From a virus: a stretch of 64,000 nt of DNA. Of the stretch, positions 2,784 to 24,102 are shown piece by piece. The stretch is taken from the IMG/VR virus record IMGVR_UViG_3300031952_000015, positions 1 through 64,000 of that record. One strand, written 5' to 3'. The position numbers and the translations under genes were made by a program. The notes under the pieces were generated by a model, which searched no databases, was not told where the DNA came from, and saw nothing but the letters and a program-made list of their open reading frames with translations. Position 1 is the first letter of the stretch. Every line of letters begins with the position of its first letter.

Positions 2784-3275
2784 TTATTTTCCCATAAACC
2801 GACCATCGTCTCCAATGATCAATTCCTTATAATGGAGAGCATGATGTGCTGAAATTTTTATTAATTCAAGATTCTCTATCCGATTGTCAAGTCGATCTCC
2901 GTTCCGATGATGGATGACCTTTCCGTCCGGAATTTTTCCATGATATTTCTCCCAGACATATTTATGTTCATACATCCTTCCTTTAGTTGTGATGATGACA
3001 TAATATCCGCGCTTCCCAATCTGGCGGGTAAAATTCCCAGTTTCCTCTCTCATGCGAGTGCGTTCTCTAAGGAATTCATGAGATCCTTCAGTGATTTTAT
3101 GCGGATCACGAATTCCAACTCTATACTCATAAGCCATCTGGCATTTGCCATTGCAATAGCAATTCCGCTTCGCCCTTGCTGGTGTTCTAAGGATCTTAAC
3201 TCTGCATTCTGCACAGATAGTTTCAACAAGATAGAATGGTCCGCTTGGCTTCATGACCTTGATTCTCTTATTCAT
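2784..3275 (-). CDS. Free-standing HNH homing endonuclease
   Basis: The product is 163 residues from the ATG at 3275. The N-terminal part has a zinc-binding cluster (CAEC, then CYCNGKC), and the C-terminal part carries the HNH core VIHHRNGDRLDNRIENLELI with downstream HHALHY. This is the HNH type that also shares an AP2-like layout. Its start overlaps the stop of the portal gene by 8 bases. The portal gene contains a mini-intein that lacks its own nuclease domain, ending only about 20 bases upstream, so this enzyme may act in trans for that intein. It is more AT-rich than its neighbours, consistent with mobility. Confidence 0.85.
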   Translation of the reverse strand: MNKRIKVMKPSGPFYLVETICAECRVKILRTPARAKRNCYCNGKCQMAYEYRVGIRDPHKITEGSHEFLRERTRMREETGNFTRQIGKRGYYVIITTKGRMYEHKYVWEKYHGKIPDGKVIHHRNGDRLDNRIENLELIKISAHHALHYKELIIGDDGRFMGK

Positions 3276-5934
3276 AGGCGACATAAGTACACCGACAATT
3301 GTGGACCTTGATCCCATTCGCGACATAGCTCTCGTCTTCCTCGACCTCGATGTTGTACACGACGCACTTGGCATACTCAGCGTCATTGCTGAGTTTCTTG
3401 AGTGGGATGAACCTCCCCTTGATGAAGATTGGATGGCCAGGAGTCCCGATGAGCGCTTTGTAGCGATAGAGATCTCCGACGTACTTCCGGCTCATTGTTC
3501 CTATGACCAGACGCCATCTGTTTTTGTGTGTTCTGACGACGTCCCCGACCTTGATCTTCTCGATCGGCTTCTCTCCAGATCTAGTAAGAATCTTCGTCCC
3601 TGCCGGGAAGCAGTTTGGATGTAAGGGGATCCGGTCCTCATCATTCGACAGAAGGTAGTCGATCTCGAAGACCCTGCGGTTGAACTCTCGATCCTTCTCC
3701 CCGGTCTTGTCGTCGATGACGGTGAGGTGCTCGACCTTAGAGAACCCCATCTCCTTCCACTTGGAGAGCTTCATCAAGATGGTGCCGTTTGCCAGCTCTG
3801 TCCGGGCCACGCGGTCGATCTTCCAGTCCTGAGGGTTCTCCTTGGTCTTGTAGTAAGAGTACTCGTCCTTGAGCTCTTGCTTGAGCTCTCCGATCGGCTT
3901 GTTGGTGACCACCGCGTCGCTCAGCCGCCTGAAGATGTCCTGCTTCATCGAGCCGTGCATGGTCTTCAGCTCGTTGTGCACCCGCTGCTTGATGATCTCA
4001 GCGATCTCTCTTAATTTCTGCCTGGCCTTGTCATCTGCCGCTACGTCTCTCCCGAGCACGTCGATCTTCTGGATCGCGATGCCGTACAAGTCCTCGACTG
4101 CCTTGGCGACGATGTCGCTCAAGCGCGCATCGAAGCGAGCGAAGATTTGATCAAGCTTCGGCAGCATGTCCTTCCCTAAGACCATCTGCTCCTTGAAGCC
4201 CTCAGAGTGGACCTTGCTCTGTCCCAGCTGCTTGAAGACCTCCTCGACGGCCTCTACGTTGACCCGCTTGACCTCGTCGAAGAAGGCATCCCATACCTTG
4301 TGCTCGATGAGCTCTTGGTCATAGAAGTCATCCAGGGACCTCTCGCGCTTGACTACGGTGACATCGTAGAACGCCTGAGCAGCAGGGCGCTCGTCTGGCA
4401 AGAAGTCCTTCAGCAGACTCTTGCCATCGTAGACTAAGTACCCAGTCTCAGCCTTGACCAATCTGATCTTCTTCCCGCGGATCTCCCTGGATTGGATTAT
4501 TGAGGTGCTTCCTTCTGCAGCTCTTAAGAACTTCGAGTCCTCTGGCGAAAGCTGCTCCTTCAGGATCCGAAAGGCTGAACCGCCTCTTGACTCGCTCCGC
4601 GGGGCTGGCATCGGCCTCCCGCCGGTGATCGTCGCTGTCGTGTCGACCAGGTCCTTGAGGAACTTGTCACCGCTCTCGACGGTCTCGTAGCCGACCAGCT
4701 TCCTGAACTCGTTGAGGGTGATGATGTTCGCCGTGAAGAGGGTGTTCCCGTACCTCACCTTCTCATCCTTAGTCTCGAAGTCGATAACACCGCAAGTGAA
4801 GGTAGCGTCATCAGCGAGCCATGTGTAGACCTTCCTGAGCTCCTTGATTATTAATCTGTTCAAGAACTCCATCATCTCCTGCCTGAAGGAGTTGATCTCT
4901 AATTCGAATGGGATCTTAGCTTCCATCGCTGTCGCGCGGTTCACCTCAGAGTTCCACGGCGTGAGGTAGTTCGGCACGAGACCAGAAGAGATGTCCTTCC
5001 TGAGGAAGTCGACCTGGTTCTGCATCGGATCGTTCTCGTTTGTGTACGACAGCGGCTCTGACTTAAACGGCTTGTTGATGATGAGGTGCTCGTTCTCTGG
5101 GAGCGAGTTGAGGTCATCCCGGATCTTCAAGATATCCTCAGTGCCGGCGACGTTCTCAACGTCGCCGATCGAGATGATCTTCCTGCCGATCGCTCGGTAC
5201 CTGGCGATTGTCGCGAAGTTCTTGAGGATCTCAGTGAGAATCTCGCCATCGTCGATGCAGGATGCCAAGAATCCCCTGCCGTAGATGCCGTCTCTGGACC
5301 ACCCGAACTTGCAGTGGTCGATCTTCGACTGATGGATCCCGACTGCCCAGATCATCTTCGCGTAGAGGTATGAAGCGTAGACGTAATTGACCTTCCAGAA
5401 TTTTGGCCTGAGGTTCACCCCGCCAAACGGCGCCTGCCGGATCTCGATCGGCACCTCGTAGAGCCAGTAAGAGTCCATCCGCTCCTCGGCGGTCTGGTTC
5501 TCCTTCGACTGCGCGTCCAGATTATAGTAGACGCGGCTCACGTCATTGATATTGAAGACGTTGTCGAGGACCCACTGGTGGTTCACCATCTCCTTCCAGG
5601 ATCGCTCCGCGAAGACGTTGTTTGTGCACAGCGCGGAGACGCACATGTTGGAGACCTCGTTCTGCAAGTTCTCGCGCTGCTTGATCCAGGCATTCAGGAA
5701 GTCGTGCGACCGCTGATCAGCTGACTTAGCTGAGATGGTCCCGCCGATGATGAACCGCGCGAGCTGCTTGACGGCCGAGTTGATCATCGGCCGCATCTCG
5801 AAGAGCTCCAACGAGCGGTGCATCTCGTAGTGGGGAGTGCGCTTCTCGTCCCGGAAGATGTTCGTCGGGAAGCTGATTGCTCCGAGCCGAGTGACTGTGC
5901 GCTGCGCTGTGAACATCTCCCTCAATGAAACCAT
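3268..5934 (-). CDS. Portal protein fused to a MuF-like domain, interrupted by a mini-intein
   Basis: An 888-residue precursor. Residues 1 to about 470 resemble tailed-virus portal proteins and would form the ring at the capsid vertex. Residues about 500-775 resemble the SPP1 gp7 / Mu gpF head-morphogenesis domain, ending in the signature HPN|CRCTYVAYE. A 105-residue intein-like segment sits exactly between HPN and CRC. After splicing the product would be 783 residues. Portal and MuF proteins are usually separate genes, though fusions are known in some phages. The start ATG at 5934 has GGTGAG upstream. It lies downstream of the terminase in the transcription direction, as expected for a packaging module. 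Confidence 0.85.
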   Translation of the reverse strand: MVSLREMFTAQRTVTRLGAISFPTNIFRDEKRTPHYEMHRSLELFEMRPMINSAVKQLARFIIGGTISAKSADQRSHDFLNAWIKQRENLQNEVSNMCVSALCTNNVFAERSWKEMVNHQWVLDNVFNINDVSRVYYNLDAQSKENQTAEERMDSYWLYEVPIEIRQAPFGGVNLRPKFWKVNYVYASYLYAKMIWAVGIHQSKIDHCKFGWSRDGIYGRGFLASCIDDGEILTEILKNFATIARYRAIGRKIISIGDVENVAGTEDILKIRDDLNSLPENEHLIINKPFKSEPLSYTNENDPMQNQVDFLRKDISSGLVPNYLTPWNSEVNRATAMEAKIPFELEINSFRQEMMEFLNRLIIKELRKVYTWLADDATFTCGVIDFETKDEKVRYGNTLFTANIITLNEFRKLVGYETVESGDKFLKDLVDTTATITGGRPMPAPRSESRGGSAFRILKEQLSPEDSKFLRAAEGSTSIIQSREIRGKKIRLVKAETGYLVYDGKSLLKDFLPDERPAAQAFYDVTVVKRERSLDDFYDQELIEHKVWDAFFDEVKRVNVEAVEEVFKQLGQSKVHSEGFKEQMVLGKDMLPKLDQIFARFDARLSDIVAKAVEDLYGIAIQKIDVLGRDVAADDKARQKLREIAEIIKQRVHNELKTMHGSMKQDIFRRLSDAVVTNKPIGELKQELKDEYSYYKTKENPQDWKIDRVARTELANGTILMKLSKWKEMGFSKVEHLTVIDDKTGEKDREFNRRVFEIDYLLSNDEDRIPLHPNCFPAGTKILTRSGEKPIEKIKVGDVVRTHKNRWRLVIGTMSRKYVGDLYRYKALIGTPGHPIFIKGRFIPLKKLSNDAEYAKCVVYNIEVEEDESYVANGIKVHNCRCTYVAYE
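3298..3612 (-). mobile_element. 105-residue mini-intein in the portal-MuF protein
   Basis: The segment begins with Cys in block A (CFPAGTKILT), has a block B-like GTPGHPIF with the conserved Thr and His, a block F-like VVYNIEVEEDESYVANG, and ends IKVHN followed by Cys (+1 residue). These are the expected splicing residues. There is no endonuclease domain. At 105 residues it is shorter than the roughly 130 residues of well-known mini-inteins. Removing it restores the HPNCRC motif of the MuF family. Splicing activity is inferred. Confidence 0.8.
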
Positions 5935-5944
5935 AATGCCTCAC

Positions 5945-6316
5945 CTACCCCTTGAACCGAAACGATGTCGCGACTCCCCTGACATGCTTGAAGATCTCCT
6001 TGATCATGAACCACAACCCAAGCGATGCGAGCAGATTCTCTTTAGTCCACCCATACCCTGCAAGTTTGAGCGCTAAGAAGACAAAGATGAACGAGATGTC
6101 GAAGCTAATAATCTTCTGGACAATCCACCGACTGTAGATCCATCGCAGCTTAGCGACTAAGATCGCTCTCTGGCGAGCGAATACAATCTTGATCTCCTCG
6201 CGCCGCTTGCGGATCCCGATCTTCGCAAGGTCGAATTTGTCCCTCATCATGAAGATCGGCCTCCAGACTCTTGAAGGTTCAACTGAATCGCTTGTCACAC
6301 CAGCATCTGTCCCCAT
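5945..6316 (-). CDS. Membrane protein of unknown function
   Basis: The start is set at the ATG at 6316, six bases after GGAGGT; the TTG at 6319 is too close to the ribosome site. The N-terminal half is strongly basic (RKRREEIKIVFARQR), followed by two hydrophobic stretches around IISFDISFIFVFLALKLAGYG and LLASLGLWFMI. It precedes the portal gene by about 10 bases and has its own class A promoter. Topology suggests a soluble basic head and two membrane helices. Confidence 0.6.
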   Translation of the reverse strand: MGTDAGVTSDSVEPSRVWRPIFMMRDKFDLAKIGIRKRREEIKIVFARQRAILVAKLRWIYSRWIVQKIISFDISFIFVFLALKLAGYGWTKENLLASLGLWFMIKEIFKHVRGVATSFRFKG

Positions 6317-6338
6317 CAATGGACCTCCGATTCTCCTG

Positions 6339-6355
6339 TATTTAAATATGATTAC
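6339..6355 (-). promoter_or_regulatory. Class A promoter upstream of the portal unit
   Basis: Minus strand TAATCATATTTAAATAC. The TAA is the stop codon of the nuclease gene at 6352..7122. It faces the 6316 gene and the portal, with the TATA-like core about 25-30 bases before that start. Confidence 0.65.
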
Positions 6356-7122
6356 TTTTCAGCGTAAGCCTTGCCCTTAAGGAACGTCTGCTTGACCGTC
6401 AAGAACCGCCTCTCAAGTCCCAAGAGGTCTCGCTCCAAGAGCTTCACCTGGCTCGGCAAGTTGAACCCCATCATGATGACCTTCTGCTCCTCTGTGAACG
6501 GCCAGAACTTCTTATAGCTCCTCTGCATGTAGTCTCGCTCCGCGAAGAACCGATTGAAAAGAATATTGCGCCGCACTCCCTCGATGATGTCGAGATAGCT
6601 CATCACCTTATCAGCGTTCCCGCCGAACCCATTCGCGCTGAACAGCAAGTCGCGCTCTGACTCAGTTGCCACCTCAGTCCAATGGATCATCTTCGGCCAG
6701 ACTTCGACTGTCATTGACCCATCATCAAAAACCCTGAGGACTCCGATCCCTCGCGGAAGATACTCAGGAGACTTCTTCTTGTGGACAACCAGAAAAGTGT
6801 AGTCGCAGCCGAACATGTAAGAATCAATCTGAGACGGAAGGAGAGTGTACGCATCGCCATCGCCCTTAATCTCAAATCCAATAAGAGTAAGCGTTTCCTG
6901 GTCTCCAGCGATTAAGTCGAACGGGTGCCCATCGATCCCAGAGATCGAGCGCTCCTCCCTCAGCAAGAAATTCTTCGGCTCTAAGCAGTCCCTTAAGATC
7001 TTGCGGATCTCGAGCTCATTGAGGACCTTCTCTACCGAGACATTCGCCAGCTTCTTTTTGTACTCGTCTCGTTCATCAAAAGCTGGCGGACTATGGAATG
7101 GCAGCTCGAAGAACTTCATCAT
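6352..7122 (-). CDS. PD-(D/E)XK nuclease-like protein
   Basis: A 256-residue protein. Around residues 65-105 it has IDGHPFDLIAGD, then GFEIKGDGDAYTLLPSQIDSY, which matches the D ... ExK ... Q arrangement of the restriction-endonuclease-like fold. Such proteins process DNA ends or act in repair or defence. The C-terminal third is helical and basic. The start overlaps the previous stop (ATGATGAAG). The family could not be named further. Confidence 0.65.
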   Translation of the reverse strand: MMKFFELPFHSPPAFDERDEYKKKLANVSVEKVLNELEIRKILRDCLEPKNFLLREERSISGIDGHPFDLIAGDQETLTLIGFEIKGDGDAYTLLPSQIDSYMFGCDYTFLVVHKKKSPEYLPRGIGVLRVFDDGSMTVEVWPKMIHWTEVATESERDLLFSANGFGGNADKVMSYLDIIEGVRRNILFNRFFAERDYMQRSYKKFWPFTEEQKVIMMGFNLPSQVKLLERDLLGLERRFLTVKQTFLKGKAYAEK

Positions 7123-11053: not shown

Positions 11054-11073
11054 GCTTTTTAATCATTGCTATC
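11054..11073 (-). promoter_or_regulatory. Class B promoter (GCAATGATTAAAAA)
   Basis: Minus strand GATAGCAATGATTAAAAAGC, just after the terminase stop codon and facing the 11032 gene. The same core occurs at 20642 and 32287. Confidence 0.65.
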
Positions 11074-13888
11074 AAAATCTTCCGCTGCCTCGAGCCTGCC
11101 GTTTCATCCAAGCGATCTTCTCAGGCCAAGTGACTTGGGCGAGGGTTTTCCTCAGCTCCTCAGTGTCCCGCTTCTCGAGGATCGGAAGCTTTTGCGGTCC
11201 CGGAACCGGGACAGTCGATGAATAATCTACAGTCGAGCCGATGCCAGACCTGAATCCCTCCTTAAGCAGCGCGAGAGCGTTTGCCCAGAACAGGTCTGCG
11301 TGTCCTTCAAGCCGCTTGTGGTCAGCCTTGAAGTCATAGTTCACTGCGTTCAAGTGCTTTACCTGCAGATCATCTCCGATGAAGCTCACTGAATCGTCCT
11401 GCATCATGTGCTTCATGTTTGTCGCCATCCGGTCGATGATCGGAAGCCGCTTCCCCCCTTGGCCAGATCTGACTCTCTCCGAGAACTGGATGCCCTCGAC
11501 CATCGACCCATGCCGGCGTCTGAGGTAGTCGAACAGCCCAGTGCCGACGCCAGTCATGTCAATCCGGACCTTCACGATGCTCGGGAAGTGCCTGAAGAGG
11601 CTTGAAATTAGCGCTTCTTGATCTGGAGTGGAGACGTTCTTCAAGAGGCCGATGAATCGCTGTGTCATCCGCAGCTTTCCGTCCTCTGGATCGATGGTCT
11701 TCTCGAACAATGAGACTGCGGTGAAGTCTCGGCTCCGAGCGACATCGATCCCTATGTACATCGGATTGTCAGTCTTGAAGACGAACTCAGAATCCTTTAT
11801 GATGTCCTCATAGTAATTCTTCAGCTCATTGTCGATGCACTGCATGATAAGAGAGTATGGTAAGAAGCTAAGTGAATCATCAAGGAACGAGCAATTATGA
11901 ACGATCCCGATCTCAGTCAAATAGGTACTGTCGCCATCAACATCAAGATTCCAAACATCTCCAGAATAATCTTTAAAATCTATAGTTCTTATCTTAAGAA
12001 GATCAAATTTATCAAATTGAAAGACCTTGCTATGACGAACGCCCTGATGCGCTATACCAAAGAATTTAGATAGTCTTTCGAATGATTTACCATATATCTG
12101 GATTTGATAGGGGGGATTTCGGTTGACTTTCCTTCCAAGCAACATTGCAGTTTTCCGCTTGTCTTTTGAAACATGCACACTCGAATAGACATTGTTCATA
12201 AGAAGCACGAGATTGATCTCTTTAGCCAATCTCTCCGAGATGGTCCCATAAATATATTTTTTCTCGGTCCGACAACCATCGCCATCAAAACACCCATTCA
12301 AAAGCCACATCATCTGATCCCTTGAAAGGTCCCAAACAAATTCTGGAAGGTGTTTATTCTTAGCTCCTATACCGAACAGTATGCGAAAGACGTCATGGAG
12401 AAGCTTATTAAAACAGACCACTTCTGTCGATGTCGGCCGAGTATCATGATTTGAAATTGATGCTCGTTTCCCAAAGTACATCTCTATCGTCGTCTGGACT
12501 TCAGAAATTAATTGGCTCTCGCTCGATGAAAACCCAAACCTCAATTGATTGCCAACGGCAGACCCTTCAGCAATATAAAGTCCAAACAGTCTAAGAACAT
12601 CTCTATTAAGCGGGATCTCATCATATATTGAATTTTTAGGTTCGTTAAGTGGCAAAGAATTTCCTTTTGTCCATTTGACCTTATGATAAATCCGATCCCC
12701 AGATCTAATGAATGTGTCTCCAAGATATGCACTCAATCTGATGCTCTTAATGCCCCTGCGGCCATTCAATCTTGGAAATAGGATATAATCTCCAGGCTTG
12801 AGTTCCCCTGCCAACCTGAACTCTGGCGAGATCTTAAGGTACTCTCTCCTTGACTTGTTATTCTTGATTGAAAGGATTGGGTGATTTTTCGTGAGAGACA
12901 TCTCGTTCCCTCCCCATACCTGCATCTTAACGCATTCTTCAGATATTTTACGAGAGAGTATTCCCTTAACGATAGAAACCCCGCCATCTCGATTCAGTAT
13001 CCTATCTCCAATGGAGATATTCTTGATTTGCATTGGTTTTTCTCCGAGGACGACTGTGTCAGGATGCAAGCACATTTGTTCCTGTTTGAAGATCTCAATA
13101 TCTCTCTGCCGCTTCGTCTCAAGCTTCTTGACATTGATCCACGGCGCAATCGGAATAAGATTCTGAGGTTCCAGTGGCTTAAAGATGTCGACCTTGCTCG
13201 GATCATAGACTGGGAGGTTGAACACTCGGAATCCGACTGGTTTGTTGACAAGCCTGAAGAAATTATTGTTCCTGCCGTACGGCGTCGAGCCGATGATCGT
13301 CTGCGAGAGGCTTCCGATCATCGCATCCTGGACTGCTGCCAAAAGCTCATCTGATCTATTCTGGAACGCGTACTCATCGACCAGGCAGCGCATCAAGCGA
13401 AGACTTCTGACTGAATCCGCTGCGCTTCCAGACGGATATGACGCGATGACTGATCCGGTCTTCTTGTTCCGGAGTTCAGTCTCCTTGAACTCAAACTGAT
13501 CCTTGAGATTCCCGCAAGAGTTTAAAATGAACCACTTGCAGAGCTTGACTATGTAATTCGATGCCTTCTGTCGCTGCGCGATGACTGGGATAGTCTGGTT
13601 GTCGAAGATGCTCGCGGTCGTGATGATGTCGACACATGATGATGACGTGAACGACACTCCCCTTGCTTTGATGTAAAGGATGTCCTTCGCATCAACCCCC
13701 TTGATGTTGAGCGACTCCAAGTGGAATTGCGCTTGGTACTTTGTCGGGACGTACGGGATCGGCTGGCCAGTCTCACTTCGCATCCTGAATGTGTTCGTAA
13801 GAAGCAGAAGGTACTCTTGCTGCTGAGCAGTCAACTCGATAGTCGGATCATACCAGCTCGGCAAGTACTTGATCTCAGGGAGCTCCAT
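11072..13888 (-). CDS. terL: Terminase large subunit with a LAGLIDADG intein
   Basis: A 938-residue precursor; 545 residues after intein removal. Terminase packages DNA into the prohead with an ATPase and a nuclease domain. The N-extein shows a Walker A-like YIKARGVSFTSSS (a variant of the KARQxGfS type, without the usual GKT), Walker B RCLVDEYAF, and the motif III-like IIGSTPYG. The C-extein holds the nuclease with YIGIDVARSRD, RIDMTGVG and a late HADLFWANALAL. The intein is inserted at QEQM|CSF, a position at the end of the ATPase domain. The ATG at 13888 has no ribosome site; a tRNA-like element ends two bases before it. Confidence 0.92.
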   Translation of the reverse strand: MELPEIKYLPSWYDPTIELTAQQQEYLLLLTNTFRMRSETGQPIPYVPTKYQAQFHLESLNIKGVDAKDILYIKARGVSFTSSSCVDIITTASIFDNQTIPVIAQRQKASNYIVKLCKWFILNSCGNLKDQFEFKETELRNKKTGSVIASYPSGSAADSVRSLRLMRCLVDEYAFQNRSDELLAAVQDAMIGSLSQTIIGSTPYGRNNNFFRLVNKPVGFRVFNLPVYDPSKVDIFKPLEPQNLIPIAPWINVKKLETKRQRDIEIFKQEQMCLHPDTVVLGEKPMQIKNISIGDRILNRDGGVSIVKGILSRKISEECVKMQVWGGNEMSLTKNHPILSIKNNKSRREYLKISPEFRLAGELKPGDYILFPRLNGRRGIKSIRLSAYLGDTFIRSGDRIYHKVKWTKGNSLPLNEPKNSIYDEIPLNRDVLRLFGLYIAEGSAVGNQLRFGFSSSESQLISEVQTTIEMYFGKRASISNHDTRPTSTEVVCFNKLLHDVFRILFGIGAKNKHLPEFVWDLSRDQMMWLLNGCFDGDGCRTEKKYIYGTISERLAKEINLVLLMNNVYSSVHVSKDKRKTAMLLGRKVNRNPPYQIQIYGKSFERLSKFFGIAHQGVRHSKVFQFDKFDLLKIRTIDFKDYSGDVWNLDVDGDSTYLTEIGIVHNCSFLDDSLSFLPYSLIMQCIDNELKNYYEDIIKDSEFVFKTDNPMYIGIDVARSRDFTAVSLFEKTIDPEDGKLRMTQRFIGLLKNVSTPDQEALISSLFRHFPSIVKVRIDMTGVGTGLFDYLRRRHGSMVEGIQFSERVRSGQGGKRLPIIDRMATNMKHMMQDDSVSFIGDDLQVKHLNAVNYDFKADHKRLEGHADLFWANALALLKEGFRSGIGSTVDYSSTVPVPGPQKLPILEKRDTEELRKTLAQVTWPEKIAWMKRQARGSGRF
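11894..13072 (-). mobile_element. Intein with LAGLIDADG homing endonuclease in TerL
   Basis: 393 residues. It starts with Cys (CLHPDTVVLG, block A), has block B LTKNHPIL, two LAGLIDADG motifs (LFGLYIAEGSA and WLLNGCFDGDGC), block F-like DVWNLDVDGDSTYLTEIG, and ends VHN followed by Cys. All splicing residues are present. The DNA is visibly more AT-rich than the flanking terminase, which supports separate origin. Confidence 0.92.
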
Positions 13889-23412: not shown

Positions 23413-24102
23413 TCACCCCCTTGCTTTCTGCTTCCGCAGTTGTGCCTTGATAAGTGAGATGAGCTTCTTCTCGGTGGCTGCTGCGTAGGCTGCGTAGTAG
23501 GCTGCGGAGGCTGCGTAGTAGGCTGCGTTGGCTGCGTAGGCTGCTGCGTAGGCTGCGTAGGCTGCTGCGTAGGCTGCTGCGGAGGCTGCTGCGTAGGCTG
23601 CGTAGTAGGCTGCTGCGGAGGCTGCTACGTCGGCTGCTGCGTAGGCTGCGTAGTAGGCTGCGGAGGCTGCTATGCGATTTTCTTCGCTCGGCTCTTTCAG
23701 CCATGCCTCTGCCGCTTCTATCGCCTGTCGCGGTCTTTTGTCCTGCGGATATTTCGTCTCGAAATTCTTAAGGCATTTCTTCGCTGCCCAAATCGCGAAC
23801 TTCACCGATACCTCTTTGAGGTTCTCGACCTCTTGCACGATGCGCATCTCCTCTGAACAGAACTTGTCGTCCTTCTCGTGCAGCACCTTGCCCCGTGCCT
23901 CAACGATAAACAGCCGAGGGCCATACACGTAAGACTGGAATGCCTTAAGCGGCGATTCGCAGGCATGGAAGCCCGCATTGCACATCTCCAGTTTGCCCTC
24001 GTGCTTCTTCCACGCGCCGAGCTTCCACTTCTCGATAGTGCCGTTCTTGCTTGTCATGTCCTCCTTGAGGAACTTATAGCCTTTGATTGTCTTTGCTCTC
24101 AT
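23413..24102 (-). CDS. DUF7666-like protein with a long Ala/Tyr repeat
   Basis: 229 residues. The N-terminus (KGYKFLKEDMTSKNG, then CNAGFHACESPLKAF and RLFIVEARGKVLHEKDDKFCSEEM) resembles a family found in phages and bacteria near low-complexity tails. Residues about 140-215 are a repeat of AAYAA-type units and may form an extended helix; the DNA is a run of GCTGCGTAG units. The C-terminus is Lys-rich. No activity is known to me. Confidence 0.6.
   Translation of the reverse strand: MRAKTIKGYKFLKEDMTSKNGTIEKWKLGAWKKHEGKLEMCNAGFHACESPLKAFQSYVYGPRLFIVEARGKVLHEKDDKFCSEEMRIVQEVENLKEVSVKFAIWAAKKCLKNFETKYPQDKRPRQAIEAAEAWLKEPSEENRIAASAAYYAAYAAADVAASAAAYYAAYAAASAAAYAAAYAAYAAAYAANAAYYAASAAYYAAYAAATEKKLISLIKAQLRKQKARG
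23476..23675. repeat. Tandem low-complexity repeat encoding Ala/Tyr
   Basis: About 200 bases made of variants of GCTGCGTAG and GCTGCTGCG units. In the minus-strand reading frame they give Ala-Ala-Tyr-Ala repeats. Repeat length is expected to vary between isolates. Confidence 0.8.

Follow-up and report, generated by a model that had tools for sequence, protein, structure and literature searches.

Described Mini-Inteins and Related HINT Domains

The split intein gp41-1 (125 aa) has been called the smallest intein identified to date (2025; PMC12245125), and an earlier review placed the minimum for mini-inteins at 134 residues (2014; PMC4031507). Among HINT domains of known structure, that of Clostridium thermocellum (PDB 2lwy; 138 residues) was deposited as a BIL domain. 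An intein in a phage portal protein has been described for cluster C1 mycobacteriophages, in a paper whose main text makes no mention of a MuF or minor capsid protein (PMC5050341). For phage introns, collaborative homing has been described, with endonuclease turnover offered as an alternative (PMC10448857).

The element considered here is a 105-residue insert in a portal-MuF fusion protein encoded by virus record IMGVR_UViG_3300031952_000015 (70,145 bp), of which positions 1 to 64,000 form the stretch hereafter called "the window". Like gp41-1 and other mini-inteins, the insert combines a (predicted) HINT fold and class 1 residues with the lack of an endonuclease, but it has 105 residues rather than 125 and is without the hairpin between blocks B and F; like the C1 mycobacteriophage intein, and unlike 2lwy, it sits in a phage portal protein. 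It is very likely a class 1 cis-splicing mini-intein at the HPN↓CRC site (arrow, insertion point) of the portal-MuF protein of an archaeal-type tailed virus, probably persisting as a long-established, immobile remnant.

The Insert and Its Exteins

The portal-MuF precursor gene is an open frame of 888 aa on the minus strand (3268–5934, stop codon included), in which PHROGs portal families match residues 218–424 and 390–775. The insert is in frame, comprises exactly 315 bp (3298–3612, minus strand), and corresponds to residues 775–879. It is preceded by an N-extein (3613–5934, minus strand) that comprises the portal and most of MuF and ends ...EDRIPLHPN; the insert itself runs CFPAGT...IKVHN, and is followed by a C-extein of only nine residues, CRCTYVAYE-stop (3271–3297, minus strand). 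Joining the flanks gives a product of 783 residues with the C-terminus ...LHPNCRCTYVAYE. The open frame and its junctions thus reproduce exactly the coordinates, the length of 105 residues, and the spliced size of about 783 residues proposed in a preliminary description of this DNA, which had also held that removal of the insert restores the HPNCRC motif of the MuF family. The profile scores bear this out: with the insert present, TIGR01641 (MuF) scores 31.9 bits, below its cut-off of 39.65, and the match ends at profile position 101, whereas with the flanks joined it scores 44.6 bits (a gain of 12.7 bits) and reaches position 106 of 109. PF04233 matches only the joined sequence (positions 3–111 of 112; 24.8 bits, under the 29.6 cut-off), and the alignment with MuF proteins of Acinetobacter phages, which have no intein, continues across this junction (e.g., ...PLHPNCR). 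By these profile matches, the host domain of the insert is MuF, fused behind the portal.

The insert alone matches Pfam Hint_2 (6e-9; 36.8 bits, cut-off 28.4), Pfam Vint (1.3e-6; 28.8 bits, cut-off 27), and NCBIfam intein_Cterm (2e-7; 30.9 bits, about twice the cut-off of 15.6), the last also being found in the whole portal-MuF protein (5.1e-8); these intein matches are far beyond chance. In the profile search, scores for the Intein_splicing and intein_Nterm models were under their cut-offs. The Pfam search found neither a LAGLIDADG nor an HNH domain in the insert, as expected of a mini-intein. The splicing residues of blocks A, B, F, and G that had been noted from the letters alone are all present, and fall in columns that vary little or not at all in an alignment of 24 sequences (A2). 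The block A region CFPAGTKILTRSGEKPIEKIKVGDVVRTHK (3523–3612, minus strand) starts with the catalytic Cys1 (codon 3610–3612); the block B region (3424–3453, minus strand) contains TPGH, with Thr57-x-x-His60 (in the flanked-sequence numbering of A2, T60 is nearly invariant and H63 invariant); and blocks F and G, CVVYNIEVEEDESYVANGIKVHN (3298–3366, minus strand; intein_Cterm match), end in His104-Asn105, directly followed by Cys+1. An in-frame insert at a conserved site that other alleles lack, with Cys1, TxxH, His-Asn, and Cys+1, matches to curated Hint and intein models, and a predicted HINT fold, has the characters of a class 1 intein; that the insert is an intein is near certain.

An Intein-Free Relative

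When viral contigs were scanned using the major capsid protein as query, one relative emerged (IMGVR_UViG_3300033150_001344), the capsid protein of which is 79% identical to that of the window virus. Pattern scans of viral contigs with the portal and terminase had returned no relatives, a false negative given that the relative was later reached via the capsid protein, so that a lack of matches in such scans does not equal absence; a scan with PolB also found nothing. The relative has a GC content of 34% vs. about 52% in the window despite the 79% identity of the capsid proteins, a large base-composition shift inside one virus group.

The portal-MuF protein of the relative, at 56% identity, lacks the insert, and its C-terminus reads ...NNEEDRIPLHPSCRCTYVAYE-stop. 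At the empty site, ...EDRIPLHPS is followed by CRCTYVAYE-stop, identical to the C-extein in the window, and the DNA is colinear on both sides. The search for intein-free alleles suggested in the preliminary description therefore yielded an intact junction in a related virus, in addition to the Acinetobacter phage proteins that align across the site, and the case that would have spoken against an intein, namely homologues carrying the segment as an obligate part of the protein, is excluded by the relative. No intein C-terminal motif and no HNH_3 gene were found in the 48.7-kb record of the relative, which may be a fragment. On the 3' side of the portal gene, the window has an HNH gene and other small open frames, whereas the relative runs directly from the portal to apparent homologues (judged by eye) of the window open frames at 1833–2168 and 1627–1836.

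Predicted Fold and Size

An AlphaFold2 model of the insert has a complete HINT fold (mean pLDDT 95.7, pTM 0.86), although the 24-sequence input alignment consists of longer inteins and may bias the model toward this fold. Foldseek placed CthBIL 2lwy first among PDB matches (TM 0.81 by query length; 24% identity), followed by a Tetrahymena BIL, Vint domains, and gp41-1 (6riz; TMq 0.76), so that the structure prediction proposed earlier gave a HINT fold with inteins and BIL domains as its top matches. The rank of 2lwy, together with the Vint match above cut-off, could point to a resident regulatory or autoprocessing Hint domain of the host protein (BIL-like, Vint-like, or a pretoxin HINT) rather than a removable intein. 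However, a BIL domain belongs to the protein that contains it and is no insert with empty alleles, whereas the insert at HPN↓CRC has an empty allele in a related virus; it also interrupts a conserved motif, which its removal restores, and Cys+1 stands directly after Asn105. A resident Hint domain is thus highly improbable.

For comparison, the 135-residue intein at the same MuF site of another virus (L128) was modeled (pLDDT 86.9), and has strands at residues 91–96 and 99–123 (25 residues). The insert model has no counterpart of strand 91–96 and keeps 13 residues (81–93) of strand 99–123. Relative to the L128 intein, the insert is therefore without a beta-hairpin between blocks B and F, as seen both in the gap in alignments A2 and A3 and in the models; the site of this missing hairpin, which corresponds to the endonuclease-insertion loop of other inteins, is at 3379–3390 (minus strand). 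Because it would lie between blocks B and F, where same-site relatives carry an extra domain, we infer the missing hairpin to be the endonuclease-housing one. The suggestion that the fold must be very reduced accordingly agrees with the model, and the claim that the insert is below the size of the well-studied mini-inteins stands, except that its benchmark of about 130 residues should be 125 (gp41-1). With 105 residues, the insert is about 20 shorter than the smallest intein met in the literature, and none of the 226 distinct inteins collected across all loci is smaller (the next being 129–131 residues); this sample was obtained using a V[E/D]EDESY-type pattern and is no census. Among inteins of this known kind, its length is a new extreme, and its fold is reduced in the model.

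Such small size and the missing hairpin might also be signs of decay. Since only nine residues follow the insert, loss of splicing might be tolerable, and the insert might be cleaving or inactive. A degenerating intein or intein-like domain that does not splice or only cleaves, and is tolerated because of the very short C-extein, is nonetheless quite unlikely: every catalytic position is intact, the frame is open, and intein_Cterm scores at twice its cut-off; the predicted fold is compact and of high confidence; and the relative has the C-extein CRCTYVAYE without a single change. The same short intein is not known from any close relative that would allow selection on its function to be gauged.

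Boundaries, catalytic residues, predicted fold, empty allele, and the lack of the hairpin in alignment and model are direct observations; active splicing is likely. Splicing of the mini-intein would begin after translation with an N-S acyl shift at Cys1; Cys+1 of CRCTYVAYE would then take the N-extein by transesterification; Asn105 would cyclize, aided by His104; and the intein would be released, leaving a 783-residue portal-MuF protein with HPNCRC restored. If the insert splices, the lower size limit of natural inteins would fall from 125 to 105 residues, and the hairpin between blocks B and F would be dispensable; this would bear on the architecture of the splicing domain, and would provide a smaller tool for protein engineering.

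Inteins at the MuF Site

A scan with three aligned MuF inteins returned 250 related stretches, of which 80 were kept. Mapping gave many inteins at the MuF site HP[N/H/Q/S/R]↓C...HN↓C[R/M/Q/V][C/S], where about 50 distinct viral inteins of 130 to approximately 410 residues were counted in all, and the same-site inteins share the catalytic columns of the insert, as well as its insertion point (N↓C...HN↓CRC) and its type of block F/G motif (V[E/D]EDESY). They include an intein in Gordonia phages Barsten, Nordenberg, and Lennon (275 residues, measured in Barsten), where, in contrast to the portal fusion of the window, the MuF of Barsten is a separate protein. The Gordonia phage inteins are unannotated, the records referring to head morphogenesis or minor capsid proteins (Barsten gp15, 3506–6613 of locus L036); other Gordonia phages among the matches look like Barsten. 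Nyseid and locus L286, considered as sources of very short inteins, were rejected because their matches belong to inteins with inserted endonuclease-like sequence.

The MuF HPN↓CRC motif appears to be an intein hotspot in viruses that is little described. The literature covered, in which subscription papers are mostly not included, yielded no paper describing MuF inteins, and priority is accordingly provisional. The earlier remark that such inteins are not well described thus holds for the literature, but they are common in sequence data. Given that mini, full-length, and apparently split forms occur at one site, the hotspot would allow the gain and loss of endonucleases to be studied.

A tree of 188 splicing domains places 39 of the 51 inteins from the MuF site in a single group (98/74; 43 rows), with that of the window outside it; the latter groups with inteins of ribonucleotide reductases (96/77, under the starred level, on few columns). 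This tree comprises only 103 columns, and many of its forks are not resolved; within these bounds, it does not support descent of the window's intein from the main MuF lineage, and we read its placement as a probable independent entry into the MuF site. Among the loci recovered, an open frame for ribonucleotide reductase (L050, 5998–11007) contains two or more splicing domains of inteins, of which one has 149 aa and no endonuclease.

In a further set of loci (L066, 1740–4909, as well as L075, L057, L048, L078/L079, and L102), an open frame encoding MuF and the N-terminal intein part (IntN) stops after 88–93 intein residues. A second, overlapping frame encodes an HNH endonuclease (PF01844, in some cases with NUMOD3) fused to the C-terminal intein part (IntC) and the MuF C-terminus; its ATG lies at or just before the stop of the first frame (an ATGA overlap in four of six). 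These resemble natural split inteins, each broken by the endonuclease gene that it carries, or else cases of programmed frameshifting. Split inteins with endonucleases are reportedly the subject of an earlier published study. Elsewhere, the 641-aa open MuF frame of L055 has two nearby mini-inteins (129 and 153 aa), the second at HPN↓CRC, and in L012 an open frame of 325 aa (6079–7053, minus strand; no Pfam match) lies antisense within a 361-aa MuF intein.

The Neighbouring HNH Gene and Base Composition

A free-standing HNH gene (2784–3275, minus strand; 163 aa; PF13392, 3.1e-17) has its ATG just before the portal stop codon, which it overlaps, at a distance of about 20 bp from the end of the intein, and is the sole HNH_3 gene in the 70-kb record. 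A separate endonuclease gene thus adjoins the intein, and the relative lacks both; this would be the arrangement of a collaborative homing pair, as known for introns (PMC10448857), in which the HNH protein would cut MuF genes that have no intein close to the HPN↓CRC codons, and repair from the donor would copy both elements, keeping the intein mobile without an endonuclease of its own. In addition, the N-terminal zinc motif of the HNH proteins of the same-site split inteins resembles that of this HNH protein (40–50% over about 40–65 aa in the best cases). As a specific tie to MuF inteins, however, the motif was set aside as weak, such zinc-HNH proteins being widespread in phages, and the nuclease core (HNH_3) differs from the PF01844 core of the split inteins. 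The association also does not recur: a motif scan found no neighbouring HNH gene for any of about 19 other same-site mini-inteins, some of whose contigs end nearby. Base composition also differs strongly, with a GC3 of 0.38 for the HNH gene vs. 0.695 for the mini-intein, which is why the two probably did not arrive jointly. A homing pair of this kind is rather unlikely, and the fuller proposal, that a natural intein at or near the minimal functional size and without the endonuclease hairpin has passed its mobility to a free-standing HNH gene, so that collaborative homing would serve an intein instead of an intron, is unlikely.

The GC3 of the portal N-extein is 0.82 (0.686 to 0.914 in 105-codon windows), and a second, full-length intein, of the LAGLIDADG type (393 aa; 11894–13072, minus strand), has a GC3 of 0.41. 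Set against the portal and the HNH gene, these values make the mini-intein look the longer resident, and suggest that the HNH gene arrived later and independently; the HNH gene beside the portal could be a result of endonuclease turnover. The GC3 of the mini-intein, higher than those of both the LAGLIDADG intein and the HNH gene, fits an older, ameliorated resident; the mini-intein is probably an immobile remnant that was established long ago and is maintained through selection for splicing.

Other Features of the Virus

The LAGLIDADG intein lies in the terminase large subunit gene (11072–13888, minus strand), in which LAGLIDADG_3 and Terminase_6C match above cut-off and Intein_splicing below. 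In the relative, the terminase (50–60% identity) has the empty site KQEHM↓CDFLDD in place of this intein, which, given also its GC3, is probably a recent arrival. The virus further encodes Rad51/RadA with HHH_5, a family B polymerase, thymidylate synthase, and Baseplate_J, all above Pfam cut-offs; Pfam matches to tail sheath and HK97-type capsid proteins are weak. From this gene content, we infer that the virus is tailed and myovirus-like and probably has an archaeal host. At its C-terminus, one open frame of the window (23413–24102, minus strand) has an unusual Ala- and Tyr-rich repeat (AAYYAAYAA...).
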